64,000 nt of DNA from Mycolicibacterium aubagnense (GTDB lineage Bacteria > Actinomycetota > Actinomycetes > Mycobacteriales > Mycobacteriaceae): contig NZ_AP022577.1 of assembly GCF_010730955.1 (NCBI RefSeq), positions 4,092,001 to 4,156,000 of the forward strand, written 5' to 3'. The translations under genes were made by a program, and so were the position numbers. Positions 2,828-56,058 of this stretch are shown here, piece after piece. The first letter of the stretch is position 1; every line of letters begins with the position of its first letter. The notes beneath the pieces are model-generated. The model did no database searches and was not told where the DNA came from. It saw only the letters and a list, made by a program, of their open reading frames with translations.

Positions 2828-3619
2828 TCAGCCCAGAGCCCGGCGGGCCAGGCGCAGGGCCGGCAGCAGCAGGGCGTGGGGAGTGATGGAGCCAGTGATG
2901 GCCATGAGCTTCACAACGACACCGGGCACGATCTGCCGGGCGCCGGCCTGCATGCCGTCGGCGGCCTGGGTCGCGACGTCGACGGGGGAGACCTGGGCCG
3001 GTCGCAGGCTGAATTCGTGCGCCGAGGCGACCTCTGCCCATTCGGTCGGGACCGGTCCGGGGCACAACGAGGTGCAGGAGACGCCGGTGCCGCGCAGCTC
3101 TTCGTGGACGGCTTCGGAGAACGAGTTGACGAACGCCTTGGACGCGCCATAGGTCGCCATCGAGGGCATGGGCTGGAAGGCGACGACGGATGCCACGTTC
3201 AGGACGGCGCCCGCGCCGCGCTCCACCATGCCGGGCAGGACGGCGTGGGTAAGTTCCTGCAGCGCAACAATATTGACCTCGACCTGCTCGCGCTCGCGGC
3301 CCATCGGCAGGGTATGGAAGGCACCGCTGGTACCGAAGCCGGCGGAGTTGCACAGGCCCGCGACTGGCCGGCTGCGCAGTTCCTCGATCAGGGTCTGGCG
3401 CTGGGTGGCGTCGGCGAGATCGCAGGGCCGCACCGTGACGCCGATGCCGTGCTCGGCGCGCAGTTCGTCGGCCAGGGCGTCGAGCCGGTCCTGACGGCGG
3501 GCGACGAGGAAGACGTCGTAGCCGCGGGCGGCGAGCACCCGGGCCAGTTCGGTTCCGATTCCGGACGAGGCACCAGTGATGACGACCTCGGTGGTGCCTG
3601 AGGGCTTCGGCAGGGTCAT
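2828..3619 (-). CDS. Short-chain dehydrogenase/reductase
   Basis: A 263-aa classical SDR with TGASSGIG at residues 15-22, NSAG in place of NNAG, and the catalytic YGASK. It is the first gene of the reverse operon SDR-SDR-FadD and is read divergently from a MerR-type regulator, with an 11+11-bp palindrome between the two starts. In M. tuberculosis a fatty-acyl-CoA-reductase-like SDR and a ketoacyl-reductase-like SDR (Rv1543/Rv1544) are neighbours; resemblance to that pair is a guess from memory. Likely lipid oxidoreductase of unknown substrate. Confidence 0.82.
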   Translation of the reverse strand: MTLPKPSGTTEVVITGASSGIGTELARVLAARGYDVFLVARRQDRLDALADELRAEHGIGVTVRPCDLADATQRQTLIEELRSRPVAGLCNSAGFGTSGAFHTLPMGREREQVEVNIVALQELTHAVLPGMVERGAGAVLNVASVVAFQPMPSMATYGASKAFVNSFSEAVHEELRGTGVSCTSLCPGPVPTEWAEVASAHEFSLRPAQVSPVDVATQAADGMQAGARQIVPGVVVKLMAITGSITPHALLLPALRLARRALG

Positions 3620-41015: not shown

Positions 41016-41729
41016 CTAGTCGGCCAACGACATCTCCTCGGCGCTCCACCGAACCGAGGTCACCTCAGGTGCCTTGATGACGTCGGCGAGGGCGGCCTCG
41101 ATCTGGTGGTCGTCGCGTTCGTCCGCGATGACGGTCGCGGCGATCCGGACGCCTTCGCCGTCGGGCAGGTCGGTGGCGGCGATGGACTGCACGGTGAGGT
41201 TGGGACGGGAGATCGCGTCGAACACCAGTCCGCGGATGCGGGTCTCGGCGTTGGTCGGGCACCGGACTTCGAATCGGTATTCGGCTGAGGTCTTTTCGGT
41301 GCCGGGGCCGTGGTGGCGGTCCAGGGTCCGGCCTATGGGCCGCAAGATGATGTTGGCGGCGATGACGGCACCCGCACCGATCGCGGCAGGGACGAGCAGG
41401 CCGCCGCCCGCGAGCGCGCCGACCGCCGCCGCGGCCCATAGCGTTGCCGCGGTATTCAGGCCGGAGATGGTGGCGCCCTGCTTCATGATGACGCCGGCGC
41501 CGAGAAAGCCGATGCCGGAGGCGACTTGGGCGGCGACTCGGGTCGGGTCGGCATGAACTCCGGTGAACGAGTAGCCACCCATCACGACGAACAGGGTGGA
41601 GCCGAGGCTGACGAGCGCGGCGGTGCGCAGCCCGGCATTACGGGAACGCCATTGCCGTTCCATTCCGATGGCGGCACCCAGGGCCAGCCCGGCGGCGATT
41701 CGTAGTGCGATGTCCAAGGTATCGATCAT
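41016..41729 (-). CDS. mgtC: MgtC-family membrane protein
   Basis: 237 aa. Four to five transmembrane helices in the first 130 residues with family motifs: GAAIGMERQWRSRNAGLRTAALVSLGST split over the first loop, ASGIGFLGAGVIMKQG (about 80-95) and GLNTAATLWAAAAVGALAGGG. The C-terminal 90 residues form an ACT-like cytosolic domain (RFEVRCPTNAETRIRGLVFDAI). MgtC is needed for growth at low Mg2+ and in macrophages, and in Salmonella acts on the ATP synthase. It is the third gene of the magnesium operon, 83 bp behind the NRAMP-type gene. Confidence 0.87.
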   Translation of the reverse strand: MIDTLDIALRIAAGLALGAAIGMERQWRSRNAGLRTAALVSLGSTLFVVMGGYSFTGVHADPTRVAAQVASGIGFLGAGVIMKQGATISGLNTAATLWAAAAVGALAGGGLLVPAAIGAGAVIAANIILRPIGRTLDRHHGPGTEKTSAEYRFEVRCPTNAETRIRGLVFDAISRPNLTVQSIAATDLPDGEGVRIAATVIADERDDHQIEAALADVIKAPEVTSVRWSAEEMSLAD

Positions 41730-41812
41730 GTTCCGTTCCAGTGGCTTTCGTTGTGTGACAGCGTGCTGCTGAGCGAATGTGTAGTCGTGCTGGCGGCGGA
41801 AATCCGCGCTGC

Positions 41813-43498
41813 TCAGCCTCCGTGGCTGAGCTGTATTGCTTTGACCAACAGCAGGATTGCGCCGAGGACCAGGTAGCTGCGCAGGGCGATCATGCCCAGG
41901 CGGGTGCCGGCGTTCCACCGGACCGGTTCGAGCAGGGCCAGCGGCGGCATCCGCCAGGTGTCGCGGTCCAACTTATCGATCGGTTCGGTGACGGTTGCGG
42001 GTTGGCGGCGCGACATCCACCGCAACGCGGCGAAGCCGACGCCGGCTCCGACGACGAGGGCACCGGCGAGATATTCGGTCGCGGCGACGACGTTGAGGTC
42101 CTTGAACATGGTGGTGGCCATCAAGATGGAGGACAACAGCAGCAGCACACCCACGATGACCCCGGCCACGGCGTTGAGCCATGGCCGGTTGACCCAGGGC
42201 CCCAACACTTCTCGGTCGTTGCACAACAGCAGCAGGAATACTGTGGCGCTGGGCAGCAGTAGTCCGGCCAGGGCCTGCACCGCGGTGGTGATAAGTCCAA
42301 GTGGCGCCCCGGGGATGAGCACGATCGCCGCGGCGAGGGCGATCATGGTGCAGTAGGACACATAGAACGCTTTGGCGTCCTTGAAACCGCGGTGCAGGGA
42401 GTGCTTCATGCCGAACACATCACCGAACGCGTAACTGCTGGCCAGGGTGACCGCCGCGGCGCCGACGATGGAAGCGTCCAACAAGACGATGGCGAAAATG
42501 GAGCCAAGCGCGTGGCTGTGGGCGCCGAGCAGGTGCGCGATATCGCCGGCATCGACGAAGTCGGTTTTACCCGACACGTGCGCGGCGAAGTCGCCGACCA
42601 TCACCAGGGCCGCAGCGCCGATGACGACCACGAGCGCGCCGATCACCGTGTCGGCACGTTCGTAGCCGATGAATCGCGGCGTGATGCGCTTGTCGACGAT
42701 GTTGGACTGTTGGAAGAACAGCTGCCATGGGGCCACGGTGGTGCCCACGATGGCGATGATCAGCAACACCGCATCCGACGTTATGCCGCCGGAAATGCTG
42801 GGCACCACAAACGATTTCGCGGCGTGGCCCCATTGCGGGTGGGCCATCAGCAGCATCGGGATTTGTAGCAGGGTGATGGCGATGAATACGAACATGGCTC
42901 GTTCCCAGCGGCGGAAGCTGCCGCTGGCCATGATGGCGATCAGCGCGACGGCGGCGGTAGGGACGACGATGTACTTCGACACGTTGAAGTAGTCGGCCGC
43001 CAATGCGATGCCGATGAACTCGGTGACCAGGGTCAGGAAATTCAACAGGAACAGGTCCCCGACCGAGAACCAGCCCCAACCGCGGCCGAAGCGTTCGTTG
43101 ATCAGCCGGGCATGGCCGACACCGGTGACCGCGCCGAGGCGGACCACCATCTCCTGGTTGACGATCAGCACCGGGATCAGCAGAAGCAGGGTCCACAGCA
43201 GGCTGTAGCCGTAGGTCTGGCCGGCTTGGGCATAGGTGGCCACGCCGCCGGCGTCGTTGTCGCCGACCATCACGATGATGCCGGGACCCAGGATCGCCAA
43301 CAGGGTGAGCAGCCGCGTCTTCAGGGTGGACGCGGTGTCGGGGTCGCTGACGCTGATCTTGCCGAAGGCGCCCTCGATGTCGCCGAGGTGCGCCGAGTCC
43401 AGCACCGCGCTCTCCTGTCGCTTCGGCGGCTGCGGCGTCGCTGGGCCGGCCGGCGCTGATCGCCGGCCGGTGGGAATGGGTTGTTGGTTGGTCATCAT
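41813..43498 (-). CDS. NRAMP-related divalent metal (probably Mg2+) transporter
   Basis: 561 aa with about 11 transmembrane helices. The first helix has GPGIIVMVGDNDAGGVATY, where classical NRAMPs have DPGN; the sixth has TTVAPWQLFFQQS, where classical NRAMPs have the methionine-containing MPHN. Loss of both the DPGN asparagine and the soft methionine is the pattern of NRAMP-related magnesium transporters (NRMT). The C-terminal 100 residues are cytosolic plus a last helix. ATG 43498 overlaps the stop of the MgtE_N gene by 4 bp, giving tight coupling. Mg2+ rather than Mn2+ is inferred from the residues and the M-box upstream. Confidence 0.85.
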   Translation of the reverse strand: MMTNQQPIPTGRRSAPAGPATPQPPKRQESAVLDSAHLGDIEGAFGKISVSDPDTASTLKTRLLTLLAILGPGIIVMVGDNDAGGVATYAQAGQTYGYSLLWTLLLLIPVLIVNQEMVVRLGAVTGVGHARLINERFGRGWGWFSVGDLFLLNFLTLVTEFIGIALAADYFNVSKYIVVPTAAVALIAIMASGSFRRWERAMFVFIAITLLQIPMLLMAHPQWGHAAKSFVVPSISGGITSDAVLLIIAIVGTTVAPWQLFFQQSNIVDKRITPRFIGYERADTVIGALVVVIGAAALVMVGDFAAHVSGKTDFVDAGDIAHLLGAHSHALGSIFAIVLLDASIVGAAAVTLASSYAFGDVFGMKHSLHRGFKDAKAFYVSYCTMIALAAAIVLIPGAPLGLITTAVQALAGLLLPSATVFLLLLCNDREVLGPWVNRPWLNAVAGVIVGVLLLLSSILMATTMFKDLNVVAATEYLAGALVVGAGVGFAALRWMSRRQPATVTEPIDKLDRDTWRMPPLALLEPVRWNAGTRLGMIALRSYLVLGAILLLVKAIQLSHGG

Positions 43499-44814
43499 TC
43501 TGCTCCGTCGCCCGTGGTGCCGATGTCGCGGATGGGCCGGGGTGCGGGTTCGCGGCGGCGCCAGTCATCGGGGATGAGTGCTTCGAGGACGTCGTCGTAG
43601 GTCACGACGCCCAGCACCCGGTCGCCGTCGTCGACCACCGGCACGGTGGCCAGGTTGAAGTCGGACATCAGCAGCGCGATGTCGGTGAGGTCGGCATCGG
43701 GGGAGACCCGGACCGGGTCGGTGTCCATCAGTTCGGTGACGCTGTTGGCGGGGTCGGCCTGCAGTAACGCGATCACCGAAACCACGCCCGCGAGCCGGTC
43801 GTCGCTGCCCAGCACGTGCATTTTCAACAGTGCTTCGGGCTGCAGGGTCCGCGCCTGGGCGATCACCGACAGCGCCTGTGCGGCAGTGCTGTCCGCCGCG
43901 CACGTGGCGATATCGATGTTCATCAACCCGCCGGCGGAATCGGGGTTGAACCCCATGAGGGTGATCACCTTGGTGCGCTGGGCGCTCGGCAGCAGATCGA
44001 GCACCGCGCGACGTCGTGACTGGCGTAGATCGAACACGGCGTCGGCGGCGTCGTCGGCGCGCATGCGTCCCAGCACCGCCGCGACCTCGGTGTCGGGCAT
44101 GTCGTCGAACAGCTTGCTGGCCTTGTCCGGATCGAGCTCCTCGAACACGTCGGCCTCCAGCTCGGGGTTGGAGCGCACCCGGTCCAGAATCTCGCCGCCC
44201 TCGGCCTTCGTGGCGTCTTCGAGCAGGTCGGCGATCTGCGCCGGCTTGAGGGTCTGCACCCGGCCTCCAACACGGCGCAGCAGCATGGACTGGTCGTGCC
44301 CGATCATTGGCTCGAACGCTTTCCAGTCCCGGCCGGCGTGCCCGCCGGGGGATTTGATCAGCCCGAAGAACCGCGCGGGCCGCCGCGTGTCCAGGCGGGC
44401 CAGCACCCAGCCTGCCCCGGTGTCTTCGAGCTCAATGTCGTAGGCGCGCACCAGTTCTGCGTTGGGCACGTCGATGAACCGGTGATCGAGCACGTCGGCT
44501 TTGAGCAGGTATTCGCCGTCGCGGCGTCCGAACGTGCGCAGGTCGACCTTGTTCTTGGTCAGGTCCACTTGATGTTCGGCCAATGACCGTACGATGTCCG
44601 CCGACACGAACACCTGCCGGCCGCCAACGCCGACCACCAGGCCGGTCACCGCGGGGTACTCATCGCCGCCGCCGAGCCGGACGATAACGTCCTCGACCTT
44701 GCCGACCGCCTCGCCCGAGCGAGACACCACCGGCGCCTTCAAGAGCTCGGAGAAATGGATCACCGGTGCGCCGCCGGTGCCGGCATGGCCGTCGTGGTGG
44801 GTGCTCTGGTTCAC
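43495..44814 (-). CDS. MgtE N-domain/CBS-pair protein with PRC barrel, no membrane domain
   Basis: 439 aa from GTG at 44814 (AAGGAG 5 nt upstream). Residues about 20-180 contain two PRC-barrel-like halves (VVSRSGEAVGKVEDVIVRLGG; ARFFGLIKSPG), about 195-300 a MgtE N-terminal superhelix (LKPAQIADLLEDA, FEELDPDKASKLFDDM, MRADDAADAVFDL), and about 300-420 a CBS pair. In MgtE the N-domain and CBS pair sense Mg2+ and gate the channel. Here the channel domain is absent and an NRAMP-type transporter gene follows, suggesting the sensor acts on that transporter in trans. Confidence 0.85.
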   Translation of the reverse strand: MNQSTHHDGHAGTGGAPVIHFSELLKAPVVSRSGEAVGKVEDVIVRLGGGDEYPAVTGLVVGVGGRQVFVSADIVRSLAEHQVDLTKNKVDLRTFGRRDGEYLLKADVLDHRFIDVPNAELVRAYDIELEDTGAGWVLARLDTRRPARFFGLIKSPGGHAGRDWKAFEPMIGHDQSMLLRRVGGRVQTLKPAQIADLLEDATKAEGGEILDRVRSNPELEADVFEELDPDKASKLFDDMPDTEVAAVLGRMRADDAADAVFDLRQSRRRAVLDLLPSAQRTKVITLMGFNPDSAGGLMNIDIATCAADSTAAQALSVIAQARTLQPEALLKMHVLGSDDRLAGVVSVIALLQADPANSVTELMDTDPVRVSPDADLTDIALLMSDFNLATVPVVDDGDRVLGVVTYDDVLEALIPDDWRRREPAPRPIRDIGTTGDGAE

Positions 44815-45233
44815 AAGGACTCCTTGGGTTCGGTGTGCCGCGCCGCCCGGGGCGCCGGGATCAGGCGGATCGTAGGGACAGCGGGCGAATTCGGGGTGAA
44901 CGGCGCCCCGTTCGGGCCGCTGGGTGCCACCGGAGTCACCGGCCTGACGGCACGAAGGTGTGCCCACCGCGGGCAGCGGTGAACACGGCGGGCGGGCCGA
45001 GGAGGCGGCAGGCGGGCAGGGCGATGGTCATCGTGGGACTCCTCACGAGCGTGAGCCACGACGTAGACATGCCGAATCGCATTGCTGTGCAACGTAACTG
45101 GGCCGTGCGCACAGATTGGGCAGACCCTGGCCAGATACGTTGCGAGCGAAACAGATTCAGCGACCGGCGCGCCGCGGCGGGGTCGGGGACAACGTTGATT
45201 TCAGCTGGGGATAAGGACTATCGCTAGGACTCA
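44811..45233 (-). CDS. Candidate proline/arginine-rich leader ORF between M-box and the Mg operon
   Basis: An open frame of 140 codons starts at ATG 45233, 14 nt after AAGGAGGTGA, and ends with TGA overlapping the GTG of the next gene (GTGA). The peptide starts MSPSDSPYPQLKSTLSP and becomes rich in Pro, Arg and His (LPPPRPARRVHR, APSGPNGAPFTPNSP, IRLIPAPRAARH). Proline-rich leader peptides sense low Mg2+ in enterobacteria because ribosomes falter on them. No domain is seen and codon use is not typical of a protein gene, so it is offered as a regulatory reading frame only. The spacing of the SD is long. Confidence 0.35.
44936..45031 (-). CDS. Alternative small leader ORF (31 aa)
   Basis: ATG 45031 is preceded by GAGGAG at 7 nt spacing and reads MTIALPACRLLGPPAVFTAARG and nine further residues ending at TGA 44936. 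It lies in another frame inside the longer candidate. Either, both or neither may be translated; the better Shine-Dalgarno spacing favours this one. Confidence 0.3.
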   Translation of the reverse strand: MTIALPACRLLGPPAVFTAARGGHTFVPSGR

Positions 45234-45318
45234 TCGGGTTGTCCGTCACCTCCTTCGCGGCCGCGACGCGCGGGGGCGTCTGATCGACGGCAGCACCACA
45301 CGCAACGGGAGGGAAAGG

Positions 45319-45338
45319 CCGCCGCGCAAGGTCGGCGG
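45319..45338 (-). terminator. Possible expression-platform hairpin after the M-box
   Basis: CCGCCG-N8-CGGCGG directly follows the P1 stem of the aptamer and is followed by CCTTTCCCTCCCG. It could be the terminator or anti-structure used by the riboswitch; the U-tract is poor, as usual in mycobacteria. Confidence 0.4.
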
Positions 45339-45507
45339 AGCACCCCTCTCGTCAGGGCTTCGGCACTACGCGACGTACCCCGCTCTCGCGGGGAGCCACT
45401 TTGGGTCATCCCTTAATCCGGGAAGACCTGTCCTGATCTTGGGCGTCTCTCGACGTCGTCAGATCAGTGGCCTGTGTTCACGTAGGAGCCTCACCTAGCA
45501 AGGTGCT
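45339..45507 (-). ncRNA. M-box (ykoK) magnesium riboswitch aptamer
   Basis: Reading the reverse strand: closing stem AGCACC (45507-45502) pairs with GGTGCT (45344-45339). Between them appear the M-box landmarks in order: TAGGTGAGGCTCCTA, ACACAGGCCACTG, ACGTCGAGAGACGCC, ATTAAGGGATGACCC, AAAGTGGCT and the terminal GTGCCGAAGC. Length (169 nt) is right for the family. Mg2+ binding to this aptamer switches downstream expression off. It precedes the MgtE_N-NRAMP-MgtC operon. Confidence 0.93.
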
Positions 45508-45518
45508 GACCGCGGTCA

Positions 45519-45547
45519 ATGATGAACCCCACCAAGGGGGAAGTCAA
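45519..45547 (-). promoter_or_regulatory. Promoter of the M-box transcript (TTGACT-N17-CATCAT)
   Basis: On the reverse strand TTGACT (45547-45542) and CATCAT (45524-45519) are 17 bp apart, placing the start of transcription near 45512, just before the aptamer's closing stem. Confidence 0.65.
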
Positions 45548-46482: not shown

Positions 46483-46788
46483 TCAGCGGCCCGGCATCGT
46501 CTTGCCGATGGCCGCGCCGGCCGTGCCGTCGGTGTTCTGGTAGGCGTTCGCTGCGGTACGCAGGGAAGCGGCGAACCCGGTGACGGCCTTGCCCAGGTTC
46601 TGGCAGTCGGTGGTCAGCAGCGGGCCGACCCGCTGGCAGGCGGCTCCGGTGGCCAGCCCGGACATTCCGCCCGCGGCGGAATTCAGCGGGTCTCCCGGCT
46701 TGAGATCGCCGACGGCCGACCCGCACGACGTCATGGTGCTCGCGGCGGCAGTCAGGCTCTGCGGGTCGACGCGCAATTCGGGTGCCAT
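46483..46788 (-). CDS. EspC-family (WXG100-related) type VII secretion target
   Basis: 101 aa, helical-hairpin size. LRVDPQSLTAAASTMTSCGS at the N-terminus and ACQRVGPLLTTDCQNLGKAVTGFAASLRTAANAYQNTD in the C-terminal helix follow the pattern of EspC-like T7SS targets (PF10824-type). The ANAYQNTDGTA end contains the YxxxD/E-like secretion motif. No partner gene is adjacent, so it is another orphan substrate within the accessory stretch. Confidence 0.7.
   Translation of the reverse strand: MAPELRVDPQSLTAAASTMTSCGSAVGDLKPGDPLNSAAGGMSGLATGAACQRVGPLLTTDCQNLGKAVTGFAASLRTAANAYQNTDGTAGAAIGKTMPGR

Positions 46789-54711: not shown

Positions 54712-56058
<1,347 letters not shown>

Follow-up and report, generated by a model that had tools for sequence, protein, structure and literature searches.

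Comparison of related leaders suggests that translation of a short open reading frame behind an M-box riboswitch, rather than its peptide, controls a metal-transport operon of Mycolicibacterium aubagnense

The DNA analyzed here, referred to as the window, is a stretch of 64,000 nucleotides from Mycolicibacterium aubagnense (contig NZ_AP022577.1, positions 4,092,001 to 4,156,000). On its reverse strand, to which all window features below belong, an M-box (Mg2+) riboswitch aptamer lies upstream of metal-transport genes of the MgtE_N-CBS, Nramp and MgtC types, and a short upstream open reading frame (ORF), uORF2, follows the aptamer. Judged from sequence, this region is probably a Mg2+-responsive mRNA leader, and comparison with related leaders suggests that translation of uORF2, rather than its peptide, controls the metal-transport operon. 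The reading that we favor as likely is that uORF2 is a cis-acting leader ORF, in which the M-box would gate the initiation of translation and translation would shield the RNA from Rho.

The aptamer at window positions 45509-45337 matches the full RF00380 model (positions 1-169) with 148.4 bits and an E value of 9.7e-34, the gathering cut-off being 44. A complete M-box on the reverse strand had been recognized in an initial annotation of this DNA, and the match bears this out. The promoter that had been placed before it corresponds to a promoter-like site, TTGACT-17-CATCAT, at 45547-45519 (1 found vs 0.2 expected in shuffles), a result of a consensus scan that does not prove function. The predicted Shine-Dalgarno (SD) sequence before the ATG was also confirmed: the SD of uORF2 (SD2, AAGGAGGTGA, 45255-45246) is strong, with 81 nt between it and the M-box. 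From the ATG at 45234-45232, the leader ORF reads 25 codons (MSPSDSPYPQLKSTLSPTPPRRAGR) to a TGA at 45159-45157. The upstream GTG at 45249 was rejected as a start codon; it overlaps the SD and, by eye and uncounted, is out of frame in loci with shorter spacers.

The uORF2/Rv1805A family was reported in 2026 for the pe20 M-box of M. tuberculosis (D'Halluin et al., PMC12810186), where the function of the conserved peptide was left open. By analogy, the 25-codon ORF of the window fits this family in its place behind the M-box, its strong SD and its Pro7. To place it among its relatives, M-box loci were drawn from score-ranked match lists, with the best-scoring matches listed, at three ranks: genus (M-box in 98 of 198 genomes), order (22 of 249) and class (17 of 296). 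The 166 M-box loci comprise 157 distinct sequences, a few places having been fetched twice. Each locus was then examined for an ORF with 15-40 codons and a GGAGG site in front, the choice being blind to residues; such an ORF stands at the uORF2 place in 158 of the 166 loci (150 of the 157 distinct sequences). The genus contributes 133 distinct ORFs, of which 116 are 24-26 codons long. By a motif-picking rule, the family motif is present in 143 loci; one locus without an M-box by Rfam (L017) was dropped from the M-box set. The GGAGGTG of SD2 is invariant in 62 aligned loci, its GGAGG part having been a selection requirement.

The window ORF starts with MSPSDSP. Among 78 distinct sequences, Pro is found at literal position 7 in 63 (in-frame insertions shift a few), Asp5 is present in 65 and absent in 13, partly via in-frame insertions, and residues 2-12 contain a mean of 2.05 Pro. 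The order yielded eight loci outside the genus (L130-L137), with a clear motif in L130 alone (MPSGDSPYSRPG); L132 begins MSPNGSN and L137 MSISDRP, four others have different N-termini, and L134 has no such ORF. At the class level (L219-L226), five of eight loci begin MS[PS]GxS and use AGT for both codon 2 and codon 6, and four of these five have Pro7; their codon 5 encodes His, Gly, Ser or Arg instead of Asp. The remaining three (L224-L226) have a different type of leader ORF, MR[RHS]RSS[MV]TD..., which shares CATAGT further in. By eye, MgtE-like open frames follow the leader ORF in L224 and L225.

The evidence that carries the proposal is a division of uORF2 into two halves under different constraint. 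Changes were counted as synonymous:nonsynonymous in 51 disjoint nearest pairs of the 133 distinct genus ORFs. In codons 2-12 (45199..45231 in the window), the counts were 53:44 in frame vs 26:72 and 28:76 in the shifted frames, and in codons 5-7 they were 17:1 in frame vs 5:17 and 7:18. For codons 13-25 (45160..45198), the in-frame ratio of 47:106 does not differ from the shifted frames (51:108 and 49:110), showing no peptide constraint; the second half thus keeps its length and its stop codon, not its residues. The same division was seen by Fitch parsimony for 78 sequences of 26 codons, on a tree for which aptamer and spacer alone were used; changes at codon positions 1/2/3 numbered 71/74/106 in codons 2-12, 9/11/32 in codons 5-7 and 186/189/154 in codons 13-26. 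The spacer before SD2, used as a negative control, had no phase (96/83/98 in 33 pairs). An earlier ORF set had been picked by a residue motif, which favors conserved residues; the residue-blind set is the one relied on. The motif-picked set gave a similar picture in pairs (52:40 in codons 2-12, 48:99 in codons 13-25 and 18:1 in codons 5-7) and on the tree (49/52/86 in codons 2-12, 147/162/125 in the second half and 4/3/25 in codons 5-7). These comparisons make it reasonably probable that the first half is selected as a nascent peptide and for particular rare codons, and the second half as RNA of fixed length and frame.

The codons of the first half are unusual. In the genus ORFs, AGT is used at codon 2 in 115 of 133 and at codon 6 in 116 of 133, and the window ORF has it at both places. 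In the 45 window genes, AGT occurs at 3.2 and AGA at 0.4 per 1000 codons, and within codons 2-12 of these genes AGT makes up 2 of 39 Ser codons and AGA 1 of 43 Arg codons. In the 124 motif-picked ORFs, AGT makes up 2 of 383 Ser codons beyond codon 12, and AGA accounts for 26 of 82 early vs 2 of 204 later Arg codons. General AT-richness fails to explain the AGT codons, because CCG predominates at codon 7 and codon 5 may be GAC as well as GAT. In such organisms, AGU, UAU, GAU and CGA are expected to be decoded by wobble.

In terms of composition, the second half of uORF2 and the spacer behind it are C-rich and G-poor in the manner of Rho-utilization (rut) sites, a likeness of composition only. 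Across the genus ORFs, the 42 nt of codons 13-26 have a median C/G of 1.70 and reach at least 1.5 in 86 of 133, with similar values in the 124 motif-picked ORFs; the 78 nt before SD2 and the 78 nt past the stop reach this level in 1 and 2 of 133, respectively. A 42-nt sliding profile peaks at codons 13-26, where the fraction at or above 1.5 is 0.57 vs 0.13 for window 42-mers. The window 78-mer over uORF2 (45231-45154) has a C/G of 1.58. From the uORF2 stop to the SD of the first large gene there is a 331-nt C-rich stretch (C 134, G 96), which includes a rut-like segment at 44978..45055 with a C/G of 2.0, a value reached by 0.95% of window 78-mers.

Together, these features would allow the following course of events. 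At high Mg2+, the M-box would fold and the start region of uORF2 would be closed; the uORF2 RNA and the C-rich spacer would then be free of ribosomes, and Rho would end transcription. At low Mg2+, stem P1 of the aptamer would open, the ribosome-binding site would be freed and uORF2 would be translated. Slow passage of the ribosome over the first ~10 codons would keep the C-rich second half covered, and RNA polymerase could then reach the MgtE_N-CBS, Nramp and MgtC genes. The 3' strand of P1 (45340..45353) is a candidate equivalent of SD1/anti-anti-SD by analogy with PMC12810186, and the pyrimidine-rich strand CCTTTCCCTCCCGTTGC (45302..45318), complementary by eye to the P1 3' strand, is a candidate anti-P1/anti-SD strand. 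Experiments on the homologous leader demonstrated control of uORF2 translation by the M-box as well as Rho dependence (PMC12810186). We infer that the window leader behaves like its homologue, and further that ribosomes covering the RNA would block Rho and that slow decoding would play a part.

Several observations weigh against the proposal of a cis-acting leader ORF. uORF2 is dispensable in places, because 8 of the 166 M-box loci (L117, its copy L141, L134, L164, L168, L169, L180 and L188) have no residue-blind ORF. In one of these, L168, the family ORF is intact behind a GGGGG site, and three others (L164, L180 and L188) stand before PE genes; in a further locus, L114, the family start is lost and the residue-blind choice took another frame. 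In the M. tuberculosis leader, transcription ends mainly at a site upstream of uORF2, which means that Rho need not read uORF2 there (PMC12810186). Part of the C-richness may reflect codon composition. Bootstrapping the nonsynonymous/synonymous ratio in frame gave overlapping ranges, 0.52-1.61 for codons 2-12 and 1.33-3.12 for codons 13-25, so that the split constraint is argued from the comparison of true and shifted frames and from codons 5-7. The Tyr codons of uORF2 are TAT in 100 of 102, which is no special sign because ordinary window genes also use TAT for 4 of 6 Tyr residues in codons 2-12.

The published anti-SD model found no statistical confirmation here either. Pairing of the inter-region with SD2/the translation initiation region was no better than in shuffled sequences (mean z 0.14; z < -1 in 9 of 61 loci), and pairing with the P1 strand was slight only (mean z -0.52; z < -1 in 19 of 61 loci). 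The latter pairing is strong in two loci, L003 and L004, with z about -3, and does not stand out in the window (z -0.5). A candidate hairpin around the uORF2 start codon, GGACAAC (45244-45238) with GTTGTCC (45193-45187), spans 45187..45244. Across loci, duplexes with their own partner averaged -10.54 vs -9.14 +/- 0.25 kcal/mol for permuted partners (0 of 5000 permutations), a test inflated by relatedness, and the pairing was specific in only 2 of 5 motif groups. For a hand-set 8-pair start-codon helix, covariation on the sequence alignment was not above shuffles; the paired cells amounted to 69.2% vs 67.3% in shuffles, 19 of 500 of which were as high. When the start region was folded to a consensus from the MAFFT alignment, only 3 pairs resulted, and these had no covariation.

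The conserved start of uORF2 can also be read in other ways. One is that uORF2 encodes a small protein acting in trans, which would assist or regulate the transporter; D'Halluin et al. propose this for Rv1805A. The peptide-level constraint in codons 2-12, the copies without a detectable M-box described below (L215, L270, L284 and L300) and Rv0115A (PMC12810186) speak for such a protein, to which we give a small but real chance; however, it leaves unexplained why codons 13-25, about half of the peptide, have no peptide constraint, 66 of 72 judged loci among the matches listed have an M-box, and a published biofilm test gave no phenotype (PMC12810186). Alternatively, the conserved start might be an RNA element of the expression platform, its translation being incidental. 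The AGT preference at codons 2 and 6, shared by 5 of 5 class-level motif loci, the candidate start-codon hairpin and the conservation of nucleotides within codons 14-18 would fit an RNA element. It appears improbable nonetheless, as the third-position excess in codons 2-12 is found in the true frame only and the conserved GAUAGUCC has no conserved partner within the leader, no single place serving in more than 17 of 120 loci. Pairing of GAUAGUCC with loop L5 of the M-box was likewise rejected; in 91 of 143 loci the loop reads CGGCTTAAG, a sequence that does not pair with it.

The other alternatives concern the ribosome itself. In an MgtL-like mechanism, an early Asp and Pro would destabilize the ribosome intrinsically and cause drop-off at low Mg2+. 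The MS[PS]xDSP start, the strong constraint on codons 5-7, variants such as MSPDDSPYP, and MKPDDGPSS at another locus of the same genome (L163) are in line with this, and the MgtL motif EPDP has been described together with Rho control (PMC11282234). We regard it as quite unlikely all the same, given that Asp5 is absent in 13 of 78 sequences and that class-level relatives carry His, Gly, Ser or Arg in its place, that a fusion at the end of uORF2 was well expressed (PMC12810186), and that drop-off would expose the C-rich half to Rho, an effect of the wrong sign unless RNA folding reverses it. An extension of the cis-acting proposal is that elongation over the conserved MS[PS]xxSP chain, encoded by rare codons (AGU above all), is Mg2+-sensitive and forms a second sensor in series, deciding between ribosome cover and exposure to Rho. 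We put this forward tentatively, as a possibility suggested by sequence that is rather unlikely to be correct. The module can persist after loss of the aptamer, as in Actinomycetospora (L300), L270, L284 and L215. The published fusion at the uORF2 end gave about 650 Miller units, from which it follows that ribosomes do finish uORF2 (PMC12810186), and ribosomes are not known to stall at single proline codons (PMC8092293); both points, together with the replacement of Asp5 in the class-level motif relatives, count against a ribosome that senses Mg2+. In the PMC literature searched, no proposal of a ribosome-based Mg2+ sensor or of a cis leader role for uORF2 was found, and PMC12810186 does not contain the terms mgtL, nascent, leader peptide or destabili-.

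The spread of uORF2 and its separability from the aptamer bear on these questions. Scanning 198 genomes with a strict DNA pattern for the beginning of uORF2 gave hits in 69, and the reversed pattern, run as a control, gave none. With a looser pattern in named genomes, the matches listed, 80 of 120 matching stretches, were examined; they are mainly from mycobacteria and include three Nocardia records, Speluncibacter, Frankia and Actinomycetospora. Eight of the 80 had too little upstream DNA. An M-box accompanies 66 of the 72 judged, recognized in 58 through a crude motif and in 8 more through Rfam. An M-box with an MS[PS]xxSP uORF was present in the three Nocardia records (one M-box being cut by a contig end), Speluncibacter and Frankia. 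The uORF2 peptide is called mycobacteria-specific in PMC12810186, and these Nocardia, Speluncibacter and Frankia leaders disagree with that claim. The six judged stretches without an M-box are L270, L284, L300 and the Roseateles, Acidobacteria and Halobacteriales records, the last three of which are taken for chance matches.

With L215, this gives four loci where uORF2 occurs without a detectable M-box (L215, L270, L284 and L300). In L300 (Actinomycetospora chiangmaiensis, 2990-3430), where no M-box was found at E values up to 5, a 26-codon MSPGHSPGAGF... ORF with a C-rich tail stands, by eye, shortly behind a promoter-like sequence; the small hydrophobic ORF behind it resembles, again by eye, the ORF behind uORF2 in L221/L223. 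L270 has an ORF3 relative (see below) behind uORF2, and L215 has uORF2 with a PE gene and no M-box at E 0.1. In two 3.3-Mb genomes (G075 and G115), uORF2 is intact behind weaker M-boxes of 73-95 bits (L216, L217 and L218).

The initial annotation had placed the translating layer elsewhere, in a Pro-rich ATG frame of 140 codons that overlaps the MgtE_N gene at its GTGA and would sense low Mg2+. The ATG at 45234-45232 reads the 25 codons of uORF2 only, and this ATG does not share a frame with the GTGA end (44814-44811). What runs into the GTGA is the frame one base past that of the ATG, which begins with TGA and has an in-frame TAG near the supposed start. It is open for 129 codons, 93 of them from its first start codon, TTG 45092. 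The Pro-rich peptide LPPPRPARR exists, in this 93-codon frame and not in the ATG frame. Loss of the long frame in close relatives that keep the M-box had been named in advance as grounds for refutation, and this is what the comparison gave: in relatives with M-box and uORF2 the frame is open for 36 (L002), 96 (L003), 52 (L004), 23 (L031) and 34 (L032) codons, and from the first start codon for 13, 43, 34, none and 32, respectively. L003 comes nearest to an exception, with 96 open codons and 22 Pro, yet it too has only 43 codons from a start codon, the most in any relative compared. A second copy in the window's own genome aligns to 45547-45154 at 89.5% and to 44908-41815 at 86%; the spacer between 45154 and 44908 had no match in it at the blastn setting used. 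Because lengths and starts disagree between relatives and the spacer is unmatched in the second copy, the GTGA-ending frame is taken as chance; on this sequence comparison it is an artefact and not conserved. The GTGA overlap and a Pro-rich open frame do exist, in L003 as well as in the window, and the chance that a long frame of this kind senses Mg2+ is nevertheless close to nil. The long frame as a sensor was thus refuted, and the idea that a ribosome-based layer follows the aptamer was right in part: a short SD-bearing ORF follows the M-box, and its first 12 codons are Pro-rich and selected as peptide.

Two of the relatives in this comparison, L031 and L032, are further MgtE_N copies in the window's genome. 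They lie in a 15-kb overlap of contig ends, are ~98.7% identical and differ by many small gaps. Most likely they are one locus assembled twice, and for this reason they were not counted as two paralogues. The contig-end repeat (L237, L238) is probably the overlap of a circular sequence that was left untrimmed, with indel errors from long reads, and such assembly errors could affect weak frames.

The spacer behind uORF2 holds remnants of two further small ORFs. The 31-codon ORF that had been noted in another frame with its own SD is present at 45031-44936 (MTIALPACRLLGPPAVFTAARGGHTFVPSGR), its SD GAGGAG lying inside a hairpin of -17 kcal/mol. It is an in-frame, internally shortened copy of an ORF, ORF3, which has 41-77 residues in relatives (TPQERANL...PLAVxTASLGGHP). 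A profile search gave ORF3 matches in 37 of the 78 genomes searched; the window copy was not among the profile matches in its genome. At the ORF3 place, L002 has a 22-codon ORF and L004 none that is recognizable. ORF4 (VHPEFARCPYDPP, 44863..44901) is a remnant in the window and is longer in L031, L032 and L002. Neither ORF3 nor ORF4 matched a Pfam or NCBIfam family above the cut-off; the 31-residue copy had one match far below it (E 0.098).

Four M-box matches were found in the window's genome. One of them (L163, G000:C1:4187664-4187836) lies ~31 kb beyond the window end, and behind it come a leader ORF (MKPDDGPSSSPERKPNS..., 36 aa), an ORF3 of 50 aa and an Nramp-like gene. An ORF3-like match also stands just before this M-box (4187451-4187582), and an ORF3-family match at G000:C1:3330947-3331120 is near none of the four.

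The first large gene of the operon, 43495..44814, encodes a protein with MgtE_N, CBS and PRC-barrel domains. Its GTG at 44814 stands behind AAGGAG, in agreement with the MgtE_N gene that had been predicted to start in the GTGA. It is followed by an Nramp-family metal transporter (41813..43498; PF01566, 276 bits) and an MgtC/SapB-family protein (41016..41918; PF02308, PF21770), the true start of which is probably inside the open frame. An EspC-like ESX family protein (46483-46788, PF10824) adjoins the operon, and a c-di-AMP riboswitch (RF00379, 80.7 bits) was found at 55827-55995.

The mgtL leader of E. coli and Salmonella is not known to contain an M-box, and we know of no sequence homology between mgtL and uORF2; the ykoK M-box leader of Bacillus subtilis is not known to have a uORF. 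The two mgtL leaders resemble the present one in a short ORF with early Pro and acidic residues and in Rho-dependent control of an Mg2+ transporter (PMC11282234); the acidic residues required there are, however, not conserved across the uORF2 family. The translation-aborting mgtQ ORF of Salmonella is similar in that early acidic codons in a short ORF affect an Mg2+ transporter gene, and it differs in being an intergenic ORF that frees a ribosome-binding site without a riboswitch (PMC8092293). The ykoK M-box shares the aptamer (RF00380), with an intrinsic terminator as its platform (PMC12810186), and an M-box controlling an Nramp-related Mg2+ transporter is described in PMC4072509.

The closest likeness is to the pe20 and rv1535 leaders of M. 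tuberculosis (Rv1805A and Rv1535A), with which the window shares the M-box, a short conserved SD-bearing uORF, Pro7 and a metal-related operon (PMC12810186). It differs from them in its MgtE_N-CBS/Nramp/MgtC operon and in the two decayed small ORFs of the spacer; mgtE-type M-boxes are one of four classes in that study. The arrangement of M-box, uORF2 and Rho is therefore already known, and what is new is a member with a metal-transport operon and a sharper view of uORF2. To PMC12810186, which suggests a regulatory or structural role for the uORF2 peptide, the present comparison adds the split constraint, the preferred AGT codons, the non-mycobacterial relatives and the M-box-free copies. The split constraint, the spread beyond mycobacteria and the copies without an M-box turn the open function of uORF2 into a question of action in cis or in trans. 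They also raise the question whether an actinobacterial counterpart of the enterobacterial mgtL principle exists behind a riboswitch. If the ribosome were indeed a second sensor, a two-sensor Mg2+ leader would be spread through the Actinomycetes.

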